Shown: one piece after another, positions 1 through 58,910 of the stretch
Layout: every line of letters starts with the position of its first letter
How positions within the stretch are numbered: the stretch's first letter is position 1
Assembly (NCBI RefSeq): GCF_011378715.1
Contig: NZ_WTKU01000007.1
Span: 1 to 64,000, forward strand
Origin: Psychromonas sp. SA13A
GTDB taxonomy: Bacteria > Pseudomonadota > Gammaproteobacteria > Enterobacterales > Psychromonadaceae
Direction of reading: 5' to 3'
Length of the DNA: 64,000 nucleotides
The notes under the pieces: model-generated
What the model was told of the DNA's origin: nothing
Databases searched by the model: none
The model's input: the letters and a program-made list of their open reading frames with translations, nothing else
Position numbers and translations under genes: made by a program

Positions 1-389
1 AGGTATTGAAATAACTGACCTCCACGTTTCTTATCAGACCAAATATAAAGATAAATCGTTTCATGGCTAATCCGCACTTTGTGTTCTTCTCGCAACCATC
101 CTGATATTTGCTCGGGACTCCATTCGAGTCGAATCTTTGAGTTAATTAATGCAATGAGGCTACTCGTCATTTTAATTGCTTTACGAGAATGTAATCGACG
201 ATGATGTGCAAACGATTGGGCTTGTTTAATGCGATATCCTCGCTTACCTGTATTACGAGAAAGCTCTCTACTGATAGTTAATTGACTGACTTTTAACTGT
301 TGCGCAATTTTATTTTGACTCAGACCTATTTTCTTTAAAGCATAAATCTGGCATCTTAGCCCATAGGTCAGTTGTTTATATGTTTTCAT
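1..389 (-). mobile_element. IS30-family transposase, N-terminal part (runs off window)
   Basis: Transposase of an IS30-type insertion sequence, which moves the element by DDE chemistry. Reading the minus strand from the ATG at 389 gives an open frame to the window edge (about 129 residues). It begins MKTYKQLTYGLRCQIYALKK and continues with an N-terminal helix-turn-helix (QNKIAQQLKVSQLTISREL, then RNTGKRGYR) and the family-typical WSPEQISGWL and ISHETIYLYIW motifs. The catalytic DDE core lies beyond the window, so intactness cannot be judged. A hairpin lies between the start codon and the putative element end near 480. Family call is firm. Confidence 0.9.
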
Positions 390-1055: not shown

Positions 1056-1583
1056 TCAGATATTAGTTTTACCTGCTTTGTTGGAAATCCATTCTTGCAT
1101 GTCGTTTTTTAGTTGCTCAGCTTTTTTGCCAAAAATAGCTTGTATTTCATTCTTGACGATAATTACTTTTAAAGCGCCAAGTTTTTCTATTGTTTTTTGG
1201 TCAACAATTTTTACTTTATCTACTTTTACACGTAGACGAGTAAAACAGGCGTCAATGTTGGAGATATTTTCTTTGCCACCCAAAGCCATAACAAGATCAC
1301 TAGCTAGTTTTGCATCTGCTTTGTTAGAAATCCATTCTTGCATGTCGTTTTTTAGTTGCTCTGCTTTATTGCCAAAAATAGCTTGTACTTCATTCTTGAC
1401 GATAATTACTTTTAAAGCGCCAAGTTTTTTTATTGTTTTTTGGTCAACAATTTTTACTTTATCTACTTTTACACGTAGACGAGTAAAACAGGCGTCAATG
1501 TCAGTGATATTGTCTTTGCTGCCAAAGGCTAAAACAAGTCTTTCAGCAGTATCTTCATAATTCGTTAATGGGGTGTTTGACAT
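1056..1583 (-). CDS. Tandem PTS EIIB-domain protein (no EIIC or EIIA)
   Basis: This 175-residue protein consists of two near-identical copies of the glucose-family PTS EIIB domain, about residues 12-87 and 93-168, joined by a short linker. Each copy has the phospho-accepting cysteine in the motif DACFTRLR, followed by KLGALKVIIVKNE and QAIFG, typical of PtsG/NagE-type EIIB. In known systems EIIB passes phosphate from EIIA to sugar bound by a membrane EIIC domain; none is encoded nearby. The two halves are also near-identical as DNA, offset by 243 bases (81 codons), so the duplication is recent or kept homogenised. The start is supported by TAGGAG upstream. A regulatory or decoy role is possible but unproven. 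Confidence 0.85.
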   Translation of the reverse strand: MSNTPLTNYEDTAERLVLAFGSKDNITDIDACFTRLRVKVDKVKIVDQKTIKKLGALKVIIVKNEVQAIFGNKAEQLKNDMQEWISNKADAKLASDLVMALGGKENISNIDACFTRLRVKVDKVKIVDQKTIEKLGALKVIIVKNEIQAIFGKKAEQLKNDMQEWISNKAGKTNI

Positions 1584-1828
1584 ATTTACTACTCCTAAAA
1601 CACAATTAAAGTATTGACTATTAACTGTGCATTTAAATTAAATGAGTTGTGTTGATTGATGTAAGTACGAGCATTCACTTAAAAGAAGTTAAAATTTATA
1701 TTACACCAGTCTGACTATTTTTGACCTAATATTAGATAGGGCAAACAAGTTAATTCAAAATAGATTTTCATATAAATATCTGTTTATATTGAATAAATTC
1801 TCGCTAGGCAACAGGTTTTTTCGTGAAA

Positions 1829-2809
1829 TTATATACCACCACGAATATGTTGTTTTACTTGAGATTGATAAAACATTTTTAATTTTTTATCAAGTTCTTC
1901 ATCAAGGGGAGCCAAGTTACTTACCTGTGCATTTTTTATTACCTGTTGCGGGCTACTTGCTCCAGCAATAATGGTGCTGACCTGTGGTTGATCTAATAAC
2001 CAACGTAACGAGGTCTCTAATAAGTTTAAATGGCTAGGCAGCATTGCTTTAAGCTGATCGACCAATTCAACCCCTTTATTAAACGGTAATCCATTAAACG
2101 TTTCGCCGACGTGAAATGCTGCACCGTCTTTATTATAATTACGATGGTCTTGCTCTGAAAACTTCTGATCTTTAGCCATTTTCCCGCTCAACAACCCACT
2201 CGCTAATGGTAAACGAACAATAACGCCGATATTATTTTCCGCCGCCTTTGGTAATAATGTTTCGATCGCCTTTTGTCTAAAAATATTGAAAATAATTTGT
2301 ACCGTGGCAAGTTTGGGTACTTGGCAGCAAAATATGGCATCGTCAATCATTTCAACACTGGCACCAAAGTTTTTAATTAGTCCTTGTTGTTGAAAGTCTT
2401 CTAACCAATTAAATATTTCACCATTTCGTAATACTTCAGGCGGAATACAATGTAACTGCACTAAATCTAAAGCCTCAAGGCCTAAGCGCGTTATCGACCC
2501 TTGTATATTTTCTCTTACTTTATTTTTTGTGTAACTCGCAGGGAACAACGTTTCCCCTCGGCCCACCTTAGTGATAATAAAAGGCTTTTCTTTACTTTTT
2601 TTCAGCCAGCTTCCGATACGTTCTTCGCTGATTCCGCCACCATATACATCAGCGGTATCTAATAAATTGATACCTTCATCTGATGCTACCGATAATATTT
2701 CTTGTGCTTGTTTGTCTTCAAGAGGGCCAAAATCATTTCCCAATTGCCAGCAACCAAGGCCAATTTCAGAAACGTCAAAGCCCGTACTACCTAATATTCT
2801 TTTTTTCAT
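1829..2809 (-). CDS. Aldo/keto reductase family oxidoreductase
   Basis: NAD(P)H-dependent reductase of the AKR superfamily, acting in the cytoplasm on an unknown carbonyl substrate. The 326-residue length is normal. The N-terminus holds GFDVSEIGLGCWQLG, then LLDTADVYGGG supplying the catalytic Asp51 and Tyr56. A lysine in ITKVGRG and a histidine in LDLVQLHCIP complete the usual tetrad. The C-terminal TIIAGASSPQQV segment matches the cofactor-binding end. It lies 90 bases downstream of the Gfo/Idh/MocA dehydrogenase gene on the same strand, so the two are probably co-transcribed and act on a common sugar or polyol. The start has AAGG about ten bases upstream. Confidence 0.88.
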   Translation of the reverse strand: MKKRILGSTGFDVSEIGLGCWQLGNDFGPLEDKQAQEILSVASDEGINLLDTADVYGGGISEERIGSWLKKSKEKPFIITKVGRGETLFPASYTKNKVRENIQGSITRLGLEALDLVQLHCIPPEVLRNGEIFNWLEDFQQQGLIKNFGASVEMIDDAIFCCQVPKLATVQIIFNIFRQKAIETLLPKAAENNIGVIVRLPLASGLLSGKMAKDQKFSEQDHRNYNKDGAAFHVGETFNGLPFNKGVELVDQLKAMLPSHLNLLETSLRWLLDQPQVSTIIAGASSPQQVIKNAQVSNLAPLDEELDKKLKMFYQSQVKQHIRGGI

Positions 2810-2899
2810 TATTATTTACCTTGTAAATGGGAGGTATCTAATCATTGCTGAACGATTATTCATCGAACATAAATTAATTATTCAGCGTACTCAAATTGA

Positions 2900-3880
2900 T
2901 TATTCGAAATGGTATTTTTGCCCAACTTGTTGTCGAATAGTATCCATGACCGTCATAGTGCCGAGCGTATCTTGGTGAGTGATGCCTGGGCTTTCTAATA
3001 GACCCCCACGAATGCAGGACATTGCTTCTTCAATTTCGTATTCAAAACCTGTCGAACGGAAAGGTTTATCTATTGTTAATGTTTCACTTTCGGTCACTAA
3101 TGTGGCTTTATTTGTACACCAAAACATATCATGTATTTTGATTTGGCCTTTAGTACCATAAATACAAAAATCGTTACGGTGTTTTGCCATAAAACTACAA
3201 GTAAACTGTGAAAATCGACCATCGCTGTACTGCATATTTACAGAGGTATGCTCATCAACCTCTGTTTCAGTTAATAATGACGTCGCTTGAATAGATTCAG
3301 GGTTTTCCCCGTAAACCCACTGTGAGACAGTTATGTTATATATACCCATGTCTAACAAGGTACCTCCCGCCAAATCATGGTTATATAGTCGGTCGTCTAG
3401 ATCTTTTGGTATACAAAAACCAAAGTTTGACTGTAACGATTTCACTTCACCGATAACACCTGCATCTAACCAATTTTTAACTTGCTTATAAATAGGCAGA
3501 AAGCGTGTCCAAACCGCTTCCATTAAAAACAGACCTTTAGATTTTGCCAGTAACATTAGCTCTTGCGATTGCGCGGCATTCACTGTTAATGGCTTCTCAC
3601 AAAGCACCGCTTTACCGGCTTCTAAACATAATTTAATTTGTTCATAATGAAAACGATGTGGTGTGGCAATATAAACCGCATCAATTTTTCCATCGTTCAC
3701 TAGTTCATTGTAATCTAAATAGATATTTTCAATTTTATATTTATTAGCAAAGTTTGACGCTCTTTGTTCATTGCGACTAGCAATCGCATAAAGTTCGGCA
3801 TCATCTATCACGGTTAATGCTTGAGCAAAGTTTTCAGCAATGCGCCCAGGTCCAATAAGACCCCATCGAAAGTGTTCCAT
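2900..3880 (-). CDS. Gfo/Idh/MocA family dehydrogenase
   Basis: NAD(P)-dependent oxidoreductase of the glucose-fructose oxidoreductase/inositol dehydrogenase family, usually acting on sugars, inositols or dihydrodiols. The N-terminal Rossmann fold shows WGLIGPGRIAENFAQAL, followed by the family hallmark AGKAVLCEKPLTVN, whose EKP lysine is catalytic. The C-terminal half contains GGTLLDMGIYNI, typical of the dimeric dihydrodiol-dehydrogenase-like group. I place the start at 3880 (326 residues) because GGGAG lies seven bases upstream; a longer frame from 3940 would add an unlikely hydrophobic leader. It is divergent from the LysR gene at 4052 and precedes the aldo/keto reductase. Substrate unknown. 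Confidence 0.88.
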   Translation of the reverse strand: MEHFRWGLIGPGRIAENFAQALTVIDDAELYAIASRNEQRASNFANKYKIENIYLDYNELVNDGKIDAVYIATPHRFHYEQIKLCLEAGKAVLCEKPLTVNAAQSQELMLLAKSKGLFLMEAVWTRFLPIYKQVKNWLDAGVIGEVKSLQSNFGFCIPKDLDDRLYNHDLAGGTLLDMGIYNITVSQWVYGENPESIQATSLLTETEVDEHTSVNMQYSDGRFSQFTCSFMAKHRNDFCIYGTKGQIKIHDMFWCTNKATLVTESETLTIDKPFRSTGFEYEIEEAMSCIRGGLLESPGITHQDTLGTMTVMDTIRQQVGQKYHFE

Positions 3881-4051
3881 CTTTTTTCTCCCTATGGTCG
3901 ATAGTAGTATTAGCAAATTCATCAATAAAAACATGAGCAATAATATTAGTTTACCTAATAAAATATTGTTTACATATACCTATGCTTTAAACTCATTGTT
4001 TAATAATGTTAAACAATCTATTCAAAAGTTAGCTCTATAAGGATATGAAAG

Positions 4052-4963
4052 ATGATCGATAAAAAAAATCTGCAAGGTATACCTGAATTTCTTAGGGTAG
4101 TTGATGATGGAAGTTTTAGTGCAGCGGCCAACATGTTAAACAGTTCGCGTTCAAGAGTGTCACAACTAATTACCCAACTAGAAAAAAACTTAGGCGTACA
4201 GTTATTACATCGCTCAACACGATCTATTATGCTAACCGATATTGGAGAACAGTTTTATCGTCAATGCACACAGGGCTTATCCTATATAGAGCAAGCAATA
4301 GACCAAGCACAAGAAGATCAACAAACATTGGCAGGGGAAATAAGAATCAATGCGGTAGGTGGTATTTTTGGTGAGCAAATTTTAACACCGTTACTTTTTC
4401 TATTTATGGATCAACATCCTGATGTAATTATCACCTTAGATTTTAGCAGCGTGCATGTCGATTTAATTGCCCAACACTACGATATTGTAGTGCGTATGGG
4501 GCCTTTACCTGATTCAAATTTGATTGCTCGGCCGCTAACAAGTTTTAAAACACATGTTTGCGCTTCACCAGAATATTTACATAAACACAAAAAAATTAGT
4601 CATCCTAAAGATTTACTCAAACATAACATCATTTTAGGATCAGTTCATAAATGGCCATTTACTAAGCTGAATTTGTTAGGGAATAATGAAAAAGAGCGTG
4701 ACCATTATGAGTTAACCCTAAAAGGAAAATTTCACTGTGCGAATGGACATGTCAGCCGCCTTGCCGTATTAAATCATCAAGGTATCGCGCGTTTAACCGA
4801 TTACCATATTAAAGATGACCTAGCGCAAGGACGTTTAGTAACGGTATTTGACGATTGGCAATTAAACGACAGTATAGTGTCGCTAGTTTACCCACAGGCG
4901 CGTTATAAAATTCTCCGCGTTCAAGCACTGATCGATTTTTTGCTACATAGCTTTGGAAGATAG
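4052..4963 (+). CDS. LysR-family transcriptional regulator
   Basis: DNA-binding regulator of 303 residues. The N-terminal winged helix contains FSAAANMLNSSRSRVSQLIT and the recognition-helix continuation LLHRSTRSIMLTDIGE, resembling the DhaR/AaeR-like clade in which SRS replaces the usual SQPAVS. The C-terminal substrate-binding domain follows (PDVIITLDFSS, DIVVRMGPLPDS, CASPEYL). It is transcribed away from the Gfo/Idh dehydrogenase gene across 171 bases, the classic arrangement for a LysR regulator of the divergent operon. The start at 4052 follows AAGGA about eight bases upstream. Effector unknown. Confidence 0.9.
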   Translation: MIDKKNLQGIPEFLRVVDDGSFSAAANMLNSSRSRVSQLITQLEKNLGVQLLHRSTRSIMLTDIGEQFYRQCTQGLSYIEQAIDQAQEDQQTLAGEIRINAVGGIFGEQILTPLLFLFMDQHPDVIITLDFSSVHVDLIAQHYDIVVRMGPLPDSNLIARPLTSFKTHVCASPEYLHKHKKISHPKDLLKHNIILGSVHKWPFTKLNLLGNNEKERDHYELTLKGKFHCANGHVSRLAVLNHQGIARLTDYHIKDDLAQGRLVTVFDDWQLNDSIVSLVYPQARYKILRVQALIDFLLHSFGR

Positions 4964-32901: not shown

Positions 32902-33990
32902 ATGGCTGCAGTAGAATTTAAAAATATAGACAAAATTTATTCAGGCAATACGCAAGTAGTTAAAAACTTTAATCTAAAAATAGAAGATGGTGAATTTATT
33001 GTATTTCTTGGTCCTTCAGGCTGTGGTAAATCTACTACATTACGTATGCTTGCAGGATTAGAGGAAATTTCTGCTGGTGAAATTATTATCGGCGATGATG
33101 TGATTAATAATATTGAGCCTAAGGATAGAAATATTGCGATGGTCTTTCAGAGCTATGCTTTATATCCACACATGACTGTATATGAAAATATTGCTTTTAC
33201 ATTAAAATTATCTGGATTAAGTAAACAACAGATTAGAGATAAGATAAGACCTATAACGGATATGTTACAACTCACGCCATTATTGGATCGTAAACCACGC
33301 GCATTGTCTGGTGGACAGAGACAGCGTGTTGCTATGGGAAGAGCGATGGTGCGTACTCCGGAAGTATTCTTATTTGATGAGCCTCTTTCAAATCTTGATG
33401 CAAAATTGCGTAATTCAATGCGTCGTGAAATTAAACGACTACATAACAAGTTACAAAAGACCACCATTTATGTTACGCATGATCAGGTTGAGGCGATGAC
33501 ATTAGCTGATCGAATTGTTATTTTACGCGATGGTTTCATTGAGCAAGTTGGTACCCCAGAAGAGATTTATCAAACGCCTGCAAATGAATTTGTTGCTGGT
33601 TTTATTGGCAGTCCAACGATGAATCTGATTCAAGGTAAAATCAAAAAATCTGGTGAAGGGTATATCGAACTTGAAGGGCAACGCCTTCCATTACCAGTGA
33701 AAGATATTACAGTATTAGAAGATCAAAATGTTTTAGTCGGCATTAGACCGTGTGATATACATTTAACCGCTGAACTACTTGAGTATCCCTTTACGATTAA
33801 AGTCAAAGTACAAACATGTGAATTATTGGGATCTAGCATACATATAGAAACAAAATTAGGTGAATATACTTTAACCGTAGAAACACCATCATCTGATTTA
33901 ATAGAAGAAGGCCAAGTCATTGACCTTTATATTGATAAGTCAAAAATACACATTTTCGACTCAAAATCGGGTGATGCAATCGTGGCATAA
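32902..33990 (+). CDS. ABC transporter ATP-binding protein, MsmK/UgpC/MalK type (first copy)
   Basis: Cytoplasmic ATPase of a CUT1 sugar importer, 362 residues. Walker [10 protein letters not shown] is at 37-45, the Q-loop in [15 protein letters not shown], signature LSGGQRQR, Walker [13 protein letters not shown] and the switch histidine in [10 protein letters not shown]. The C-terminal OB-like regulatory domain (from about 240) resembles MalK. It is not next to permeases: neighbours are the GPH symporter and a XylR-like regulator. It could energise the importer at 39.4-42.6 kb, which has its own closely similar ATPase, or serve several importers as MsmX does. AAGG lies ahead of the start. 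Confidence 0.93.
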   Translation: MAAVEFKNIDKIYSGNTQVVKNFNLKIEDGEFIVFLGPSGCGKSTTLRMLAGLEEISAGEIIIGDDVINNIEPKDRNIAMVFQSYALYPHMTVYENIAFTLKLSGLSKQQIRDKIRPITDMLQLTPLLDRKPRALSGGQRQRVAMGRAMVRTPEVFLFDEPLSNLDAKLRNSMRREIKRLHNKLQKTTIYVTHDQVEAMTLADRIVILRDGFIEQVGTPEEIYQTPANEFVAGFIGSPTMNLIQGKIKKSGEGYIELEGQRLPLPVKDITVLEDQNVLVGIRPCDIHLTAELLEYPFTIKVKVQTCELLGSSIHIETKLGEYTLTVETPSSDLIEEGQVIDLYIDKSKIHIFDSKSGDAIVA

Positions 33991-38207: not shown

Positions 38208-38334
38208 AATCAATATTCGACAGTAAAATTACACAATTAACATACCAATTATAACAAAGCTATCTACCATTTTTCTATAGATAATGCCTCCAATGCTTAT
38301 TTTGGGCAACTTAAGACTACTAAAGGTAATTGGT

Positions 38335-58124: not shown

Positions 58125-58910
58125 TTACCCCTCAATCTTAGCTTCAACATTACCATTCTCTAACCAAGCATAACCTTGAGATTCTAACTCTAGAGCAAGG
58201 GAAGCATCACCACTTTTTACTATTTTTCCATCGGCTAGAACATGTACAAAATCAGGCTTAATATAATCAAGTAAACGTTGGTAATGGGTAACAATGATAA
58301 AACTACGATCTTCTGAACGCTGGCTATTTACACCTTTAGCTACTAATTGCAAAGCATCAATATCTAATCCTGAATCGGTCTCATCAAGAATACATAGTTT
58401 TGGTTTCAGCAATAACATCTGCATTAATTCATTACGTTTCTTTTCACCACCAGAAAAACCTTCGTTTACACCACGCTTTAAAAAGGCCAATGGTAAATCA
58501 ACTTGCTTACAAGCCGCTTTTGCTTGCTTCAATAACTCAGAAGAGCTTATTGCTTCTTCTCCGTTTGCTGCACGTACTGCATCAACAGATGCTTTTAAAA
58601 ATTCTAAATTACTAACACCTGGGATTTCTACAGGGTATTGGAAAGCTAAAAATAGGCCTGCATTGGCACGTTCTTCTATTTCCATTTCAAGTAAATTTTG
58701 ACCGTTGAATGTTACACTGCCACTTTCAACTTCATAACCGTCACGACCCGATAGGACATAACCCATCGTACTTTTTCCAGCGCCGTTCGGGCCCATAATT
58801 GCGTGAACTTCACCTGGCTTAATATCTAAATTAAAACCTTTAATGATTTGTTTTTCTTCTATACCCGCATATAAATCTTTTATTGTTAATAAACTTTTAG
58901 TGTTCGACAT
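58125..58910 (-). CDS. sufC: Fe-S assembly ATPase SufC
   Basis: ABC-type ATPase that drives the SufBCD scaffold; soluble, not a transporter. The 261-residue protein has Walker A GPNGAGKST, the Q-loop in LFLAFQYPVEIPGVS, signature FSGGEKKRNE, Walker B LCILDETDSGLD and the H-loop in FIIVTHYQRLLDYIKPD. All are SufC-specific forms. It lies twelve bases after sufB. Confidence 0.97.
   Translation of the reverse strand: MSNTKSLLTIKDLYAGIEEKQIIKGFNLDIKPGEVHAIMGPNGAGKSTMGYVLSGRDGYEVESGSVTFNGQNLLEMEIEERANAGLFLAFQYPVEIPGVSNLEFLKASVDAVRAANGEEAISSSELLKQAKAACKQVDLPLAFLKRGVNEGFSGGEKKRNELMQMLLLKPKLCILDETDSGLDIDALQLVAKGVNSQRSEDRSFIIVTHYQRLLDYIKPDFVHVLADGKIVKSGDASLALELESQGYAWLENGNVEAKIEG

Follow-up and report, generated by a model that had tools for sequence, protein, structure and literature searches.

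A free-standing tandem protein of two glucose-type EIIB domains in Psychromonas

Introduction

EIIA-Glc is the best-known switch by which the phosphotransferase system (PTS) vetoes sugar transporters outside it, and these transporters themselves are usually regarded as the partners of EIIA-Glc. According to part of a review, it is the inducer-exclusion switch for non-PTS sugar uptake (PMC10305011). The question raised by the present locus is what a gene that encodes two EIIB domains, and no EIIC, could do in such a system. The window analyzed here is a stretch of 64,000 nucleotides (G000:C49:1-64000) at the start of a contig of 204 kb, which belongs to a 51-contig draft genome of 4.57 Mb. An original prediction made from its letters alone described a doubled, orphan EIIB that could act as a phosphate sink or report the PTS state beside a xylan locus.

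A literature search on free-standing tandem EIIBs found no title on the subject; titles alone were judged, and a printed description may exist. PMC2405797 and PMC6872149 are, by title, papers concerning the PTS, and part of the paper on Psychromonas ingrahamii 37 gives a genome of 4.56 Mb and mentions 4 fused PTS components (PMC2405808).

Results

Domain content and internal repeat

The tandem gene lies at 1056..1583 on the reverse strand of the window and, according to the ORF list, starts with ATG and encodes 175 amino acids. Pfam and NCBIfam find two glucose-type EIIB domains in the product and no other part. The protein belongs to PF00367 (78.4 bits, cut-off 27) and to TIGR00826, EIIB_glc (102.5 bits, cut-off 45.75), with two stretches matched in each case. 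Placed from the residue numbers, the N-terminal domain (residues 9-87) occupies 1323..1559 (-) with its active Cys32 at codon 1488-1490, and the C-terminal domain (residues 90-168) occupies 1080..1316 (-) with its active Cys113 at codon 1245-1247. The predicted content, two glucose-type EIIB domains each with its cysteine and nothing else, was thus borne out. The best PDB match is 1iba, a glucose permease EIIB domain; a structure predicted from the window sequence alone reached a mean pLDDT of only 38. We consider a mirror ORF on the other strand (1078-1560) to be fortuitous.

Direct-repeat comparison places the N-terminal copy at 1316..1538 (-) and the C-terminal copy at 1073..1295 (-). The repeat is 223 bp long with a spacing of 243, and 208 of the 223 bases are equal (93%), as expected from the earlier description of near-identical copies offset by 243 bases, whose limits (1075-1290 and 1318-1533) were correct to within 5 bp. 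The 15 mismatches are not evenly spread: 10 fall in the first 38 bases in the coding direction (1501-1538 in copy 1, 1258-1295 in copy 2) and 5 in the other 185 (permutation p for clustering, 5e-5). At the protein level, the two domains are 81% identical. Two points make an assembly artefact unlikely: the double architecture recurs in two other genomes of the genus, each assembled as a single contig, and the 15 mismatches over 223 sites show a clustered pattern.

Distribution and history of the duplication

These two genomes, G022 and G006 (4,559,598 bp), encode tandems of 165 and 168 aa that are 48% and 43% identical to the window protein, respectively. The search of 24 family genomes listed five: three tandems and two single EIIBs in frames longer than 470 aa, so that the glucose-type tandem is present in 3/24 (G000, G006, and G022). 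Full-length matches were obtained in 3 of 394 order genomes (at most the nine best candidates scored per genome), in 1 of 369 class genomes and in 1 of 398 phylum genomes, the last two each being the window's own genome; the three samples overlap. This scarcity holds just for the glucose-type tandem at the thresholds used, a further tandem, in G021, having been seen by the PF00367 search only. Seven pattern stretches from viral contigs did not code for any relative. In plasmid and phage tblastn searches, the matches listed (best 15 of 382, 10 of 712, 5 of 34, and 60 of 833 records) were of single-EIIB length. L036, one locus from 32 pattern stretches on genome contigs, is a Bacillus single EIIB in a 630-aa frame and was dropped. 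We also noted an EIICB-sized 616-aa frame in G042 (L031) that ends in an additional EIIB-like domain of weak score (18 bits). The tandem is conserved and odd, yet made of well-known parts.

Between G022 and G006, the N-terminal domains are 59% identical and the C-terminal domains 53%, while N-to-C identity inside either protein is 49-50%. Since N resembles N and C resembles C, the doubling probably predates the split of these two lineages. For the window copies, the simplest account of the clustered mismatches is that about 185 bp were homogenized, in either direction, through local gene conversion or a second, partial duplication, the first 38 bp having stayed divergent. An independent recent duplication of a single EIIB is disfavored by the clustering and by the greater N-to-N than N-to-C identity of G006 and G022. 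In a tree of 68 EIIB domains, built on few columns and with long branches, the two window domains pair at 100/99 and 2 changes are required for the six tandem domains; many of its forks are open, including most of those that bear on the other four tandem domains.

Gene surroundings

The contig begins at window base 1, and thus only 1,055 bp are visible downstream of the tandem gene. This side carries an HTH_38-domain fragment (3..389, reverse strand) that runs off the contig end and that we take to be an IS30-like transposase. Upstream are an aldo/keto reductase and a GFO/IDH/MocA oxidoreductase, followed by a GH43 gene at 7 kb, a GH10 gene at 14 kb, and a second GH43 gene at 17 kb. The flanking DNA (1584-4963), compared with the 24 family genomes with the best 12 candidates scored per genome, gave one further match, 361 bp at 67% in G006, away from the tandem gene of that genome. 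In G006, a UgpC/MalK-type ATPase (above the UgpC cut-off, below that of MalK) lies 281 bp upstream in the same direction, and the locus also contains divergent permease and solute-binding genes, a LacI gene, and a GH36 alpha-galactosidase. In G022, a convergent MalM-like gene is found 731 bp off, with an ILVD/EDD dehydratase and a LacI gene farther away and an FG-GAP protein on the other side. The three glucose-type tandems therefore sit in three different contexts, and the suggested link to the xylan locus is not supported.

The sugar-type ABC ATPase profile matched once each in the G006 and G021 stretches and nowhere within about 9 kb of the G022 tandem. In the window, it matched only at 32902, at 38284, and weakly at 58125, the nearest more than 31 kb from the tandem gene. 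The profile search gave no MalK/UgpC-type ABC gene upstream-adjacent to the window gene, whose downstream side is visible for 1,055 bp. Upstream of the three glucose-type genes, the best CRP-like sites scored 7, 7, and 8 of 10 (window, G006, and G022), values equalled in 71, 73, and 13% of shuffles and none significant; promoter and terminator scans gave nothing clear.

EIIC partners and conservation of the phosphorylation loop

PF02378 (EIIC) matches 22 times in the three genomes (11 in G000, 7 in G006, and 4 in G022), and none of these matches is on the 204-kb contig of the window, which agrees with the description of a doubled EIIB that lacks an EIIC. An adjacent EIIC would speak against this description; the nearest match lies 155 kb from the tandem in G022 and about 890 kb in G006, the window being open to view for 1,055 bp downstream. 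Half of the EIICs (11/22) have a glucose-type EIIB with its cysteine in the same frame, and the others belong to different types: 2 lactose/cellobiose, 4 mannitol, and 5 fructose or fructose-like/mannosylglycerate. No glucose-type EIIC lacking its own EIIB was found among the 22 matches, G000 being a 51-contig draft. As all 11 glucose-superfamily EIICs found own an EIIB, an orphan EIIC elsewhere in the genome, for which the original prediction had proposed a search, is unlikely to be the partner of the tandem. As a separate observation, contig C34 of G000 encodes a 348-aa mannitol-type EIIC (L091:1303-2349, reverse strand) that stops before any EIIB or EIIA and adjoins a gene that by eye is sulfatase-like.

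The D-A-C-x-T-R-L-R loop is intact in all six domains of the three glucose-type tandems. In E. coli PtsG numbering, D419, A420, C421, T423, R424, L425, and R426 are present in 6/6 domains, and so are G444, A445, V448, and G460. Conversely, I422, G454, T461, N465, and T468, each found in at least 51 of 52 PtsG-like EIIBs, occur in 0 or 1 of the six, and the residue that follows the active cysteine (I422) is F or L in every one. The comparison set consists of 52 distinct PtsG-like EIIBs from loci returned by the searches, rather than all matches; by our own sorting, we set aside nine other-type loci, the additional domain of L031, and short rows. Because the loop residues are kept while five positions near-invariant in PtsG-like EIIBs are lost, the pattern favors selection for phosphotransfer over mere decay, the chemistry having apparently been kept while other positions drifted.

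This conservation bears on two alternatives. Firstly, the tandem could be an accessory EIIB that passes phosphate in trans to a membrane EIIC of the PtsG type, raising PTS flux and having no regulatory purpose. The equivalents of R424 and R426, which are required for EIIB-to-glucose transfer, are kept in 6/6 domains, each of the three genomes encodes a PtsG-like EIICB, and PtsG can work by complementation when its IIB and IIC domains are supplied separately. Yet the 11 glucose-superfamily EIICs are already served by their own EIIB, no EIIC is near any of the three genes, and five near-invariant PtsG positions are gone, including the I422 to F/L change; we regard this role as rather unlikely. 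Secondly, the gene could be a little-used by-product, that is, an EIIB fragment of an EIICB gene that was doubled by recombination between repeats and is kept for no strong reason. Such an origin would suit the patchy occurrence in 3/24 genomes, the absence of neighbors common to the tandems, the transposase-like fragment nearby, and the homogenization of the copies. It is hard to reconcile, unless selection acts, with the retention of every loop residue in both domains of two other genomes at 42-59% cross-genome identity, and the double architecture apparently evolved a second time, in another EIIB subfamily (see below). We consider the by-product reading unlikely.

Candidate partners in the cell

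The phosphate donor expected for such domains is widespread: an EIIA-Glc 74-77% identical to E. coli Crr is present in 24/24 family genomes. Together with the intact loops, this fits the PTS-reporting or buffering role that had been suggested for the protein.

In E. coli, the EIIB of PtsG binds the repressor Mlc when dephosphorylated and lifts repression, and the tandem could titrate an Mlc-type repressor in the same way. PDB matches of the window protein include 3bp3 and 3bp8, which presumably come from EIIB-Mlc complexes, and an Mlc/NagC homologue is encoded in G000, G006, and G022. This homologue, the sole one per genome at E 1e-20, is just 33-34% identical to Mlc. Its gene is about 3 kb away from that of an EIICB whose score passes the cut-off of TIGR01998, the N-acetylglucosamine model, and the homologue therefore reads as NagC. 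NagC responds to GlcNAc-6-P, not to EIIB. The homologue is also present in 14 of 21 family genomes that lack the glucose-type tandem, and a soluble EIIB would miss the membrane tethering needed for Mlc inactivation. The review cited above, in the part consulted, gives the partner of Mlc as phosphorylated IICB (PMC10305011). On this evidence, repressor titration appears very unlikely.

ABC-linked tandems and other free-standing EIIBs

PF00367 found, across the 24 family genomes, a fourth two-domain frame and, in addition, 11 short frames (78-159 aa) with one EIIB each, a fragment of 30 residues being excluded. Free-standing EIIBs are commoner in this genus than expected. The fourth tandem, identified by PF00367 and the profiles in G021 (L132:7363-7947, reverse strand), has 194 aa and is of the sucrose/beta-glucoside type. 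Because of this type, and because it is only 17-28% identical to the domains of the glucose-type tandems, we read its doubling as independent of theirs. It lies 104 bp behind a MalK/UgpC-type ATPase, in a run of solute-binding protein, permease, permease, and ATPase genes beside two alpha-amylase-family genes and a glucokinase.

A homologous locus, as judged by sequence, is carried by plasmid NZ_CP017452.1 of Klebsiella sp. LTGPAF-6F. According to the annotation, it encodes a lone single EIIB (WP_063933581.1; L145:7001-7267, forward strand) together with a LamB-type porin, a LysR regulator, a solute-binding protein, two permeases, a GH4 enzyme, and a MalK/UgpC-type ATPase, and none of the 15 annotated features of the stretch is an EIIC. 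Identity to the G021 locus is 79% for the ATPase, 65% for the solute-binding protein, 47% for LysR, and 48% for EIIB (first G021 domain). The G006 solute-binding protein resembles that of Klebsiella only remotely (38% over 50 residues), so that G006 represents either an independent example or a chance association. The ATPases beside the tandems are 54% (G006) and 51% (G021) identical to E. coli MalK; two window ATPases reach 48 and 49%. A MalK/UgpC-type neighbor is thus found in 2/4 tandems, for which a rough chance figure is 0.002, calculated for a pattern noticed post hoc. The figure is based on 66 ABC ATPases among 3545 proteins, as given in part of PMC2405808.

The short single EIIBs occur in several settings. 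An 80-aa lone EIIB is found at L133:7615-7857 (forward strand) and in like places in L134, L135, L136, and L138, that is, in five genomes. Its loop reads C-T-N-C-M-T-R-L-R, its position is conserved, and no EIIC was seen nearby. On one side of it are paired genes for a sensor kinase and a sigma-54 regulator, by eye similar to FlrBC, and on the other an ABC operon, by eye of the iron type, the neighboring domains having been profiled in L133 only. A 110-aa lone EIIB with an N-terminal extension is present in three genomes in differing contexts (L139:1801-2136, L141:7228-7560, and L142:3195-3530). In G011, an EIIC gene is directly followed by an EIIB in another frame (L137:7558-8894, reverse strand), which looks like a split or broken EIICB. 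Of the remaining two short frames, one lies near a contig end and the other beside a HAD-family gene.

Discussion

EIIB and MalK share a binding face on EIIA-Glc. We tentatively propose, at somewhat below even chances, that the tandem protein is a soluble phospho-acceptor and donor partner of EIIA-Glc that shifts its availability to non-PTS sugar transporters. The gene would give rise to a soluble protein with two active EIIB-Glc domains. Phosphorylated EIIA-Glc (Crr) would hand its phosphate to Cys32 and Cys113, return transfer being possible, and since no membrane EIIC is attached, the tandem would transport no sugar by itself. By holding phosphate and competing for EIIA-Glc, it could change the amount of free EIIA-Glc and, in turn, the action of the latter on non-PTS sugar transporters (inducer exclusion). 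That the protein is phosphorylated and soluble, and that it influences EIIA-Glc and transporters, is our inference. A soluble phospho-partner of EIIA-Glc is indicated by the intact loop, the presence of EIIA-Glc in every family genome, and the lack of an EIIC partner; judging from the Klebsiella locus and the two tandems next to ABC genes, its target process may be non-PTS sugar uptake.

Several observations speak against this proposal. The window gene has no ABC gene beside it on the visible side and the G022 tandem has none near it, the G006 transporter is no close relative of that of G021 and Klebsiella, and the neighbor pattern is small and post hoc. The kept arginine pair, required for onward transfer to sugar, would suit a transport role, none of the three glucose-type genes has a significant CRP-like site upstream, and a role as a simple sink leaves the fusion of two domains unexplained.

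If the proposed partnership with EIIA-Glc is true, an EIIB encoded beside such a transporter would add an extra tunable layer to the EIIA-Glc switch. The relatives beside sugar transporters of another kind hint at a link between two sugar-uptake systems. A broader, rather doubtful idea is that free-standing EIIBs form a small recurrent class of PTS adaptors tying the EIIA-Glc state to MalK/UgpC-type ABC transporters, and that, within a single genus, separate EIIB subfamilies gave rise to tandems on two or more occasions, both sites of the chain being needed for function. If our reading is wrong, the locus is still a clear case of an ancient internal duplication with copies that have since been rehomogenized.

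Comparison with known systems

The closest known system is the EIIB of PtsG (EIICB-Glc; PF00367/TIGR00826; PDB 1iba, 1o2f, 3bp3, and 8qsr), which belongs to the same domain family, has the same intact loop, and accounts for the best-scoring NCBIfam models and PDB chains of the window protein. Unlike PtsG, the window protein has no EIIC, carries two domains per chain, and has lost five near-invariant positions; it stays far below the cut-offs of the PtsG EIICB models (172 bits against 647 for NF008301 and 166 against 592 for TIGR02002). The Klebsiella protein WP_063933581.1 is likewise a free-standing EIIB with no EIIC in its stretch, but it has a single domain, 48% identical to the G021 tandem and 22-23% to the window domains, and it lies near sugar ABC genes, whereas the window gene has no visible ABC neighbor. 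The EIIB of NF007255, which we take to be the GlvB type, is also a separate EIIB polypeptide of the glucose superfamily; the window protein scores 74 against its cut-off of 321, and GlvB works with an EIIC of its own, GlvC.
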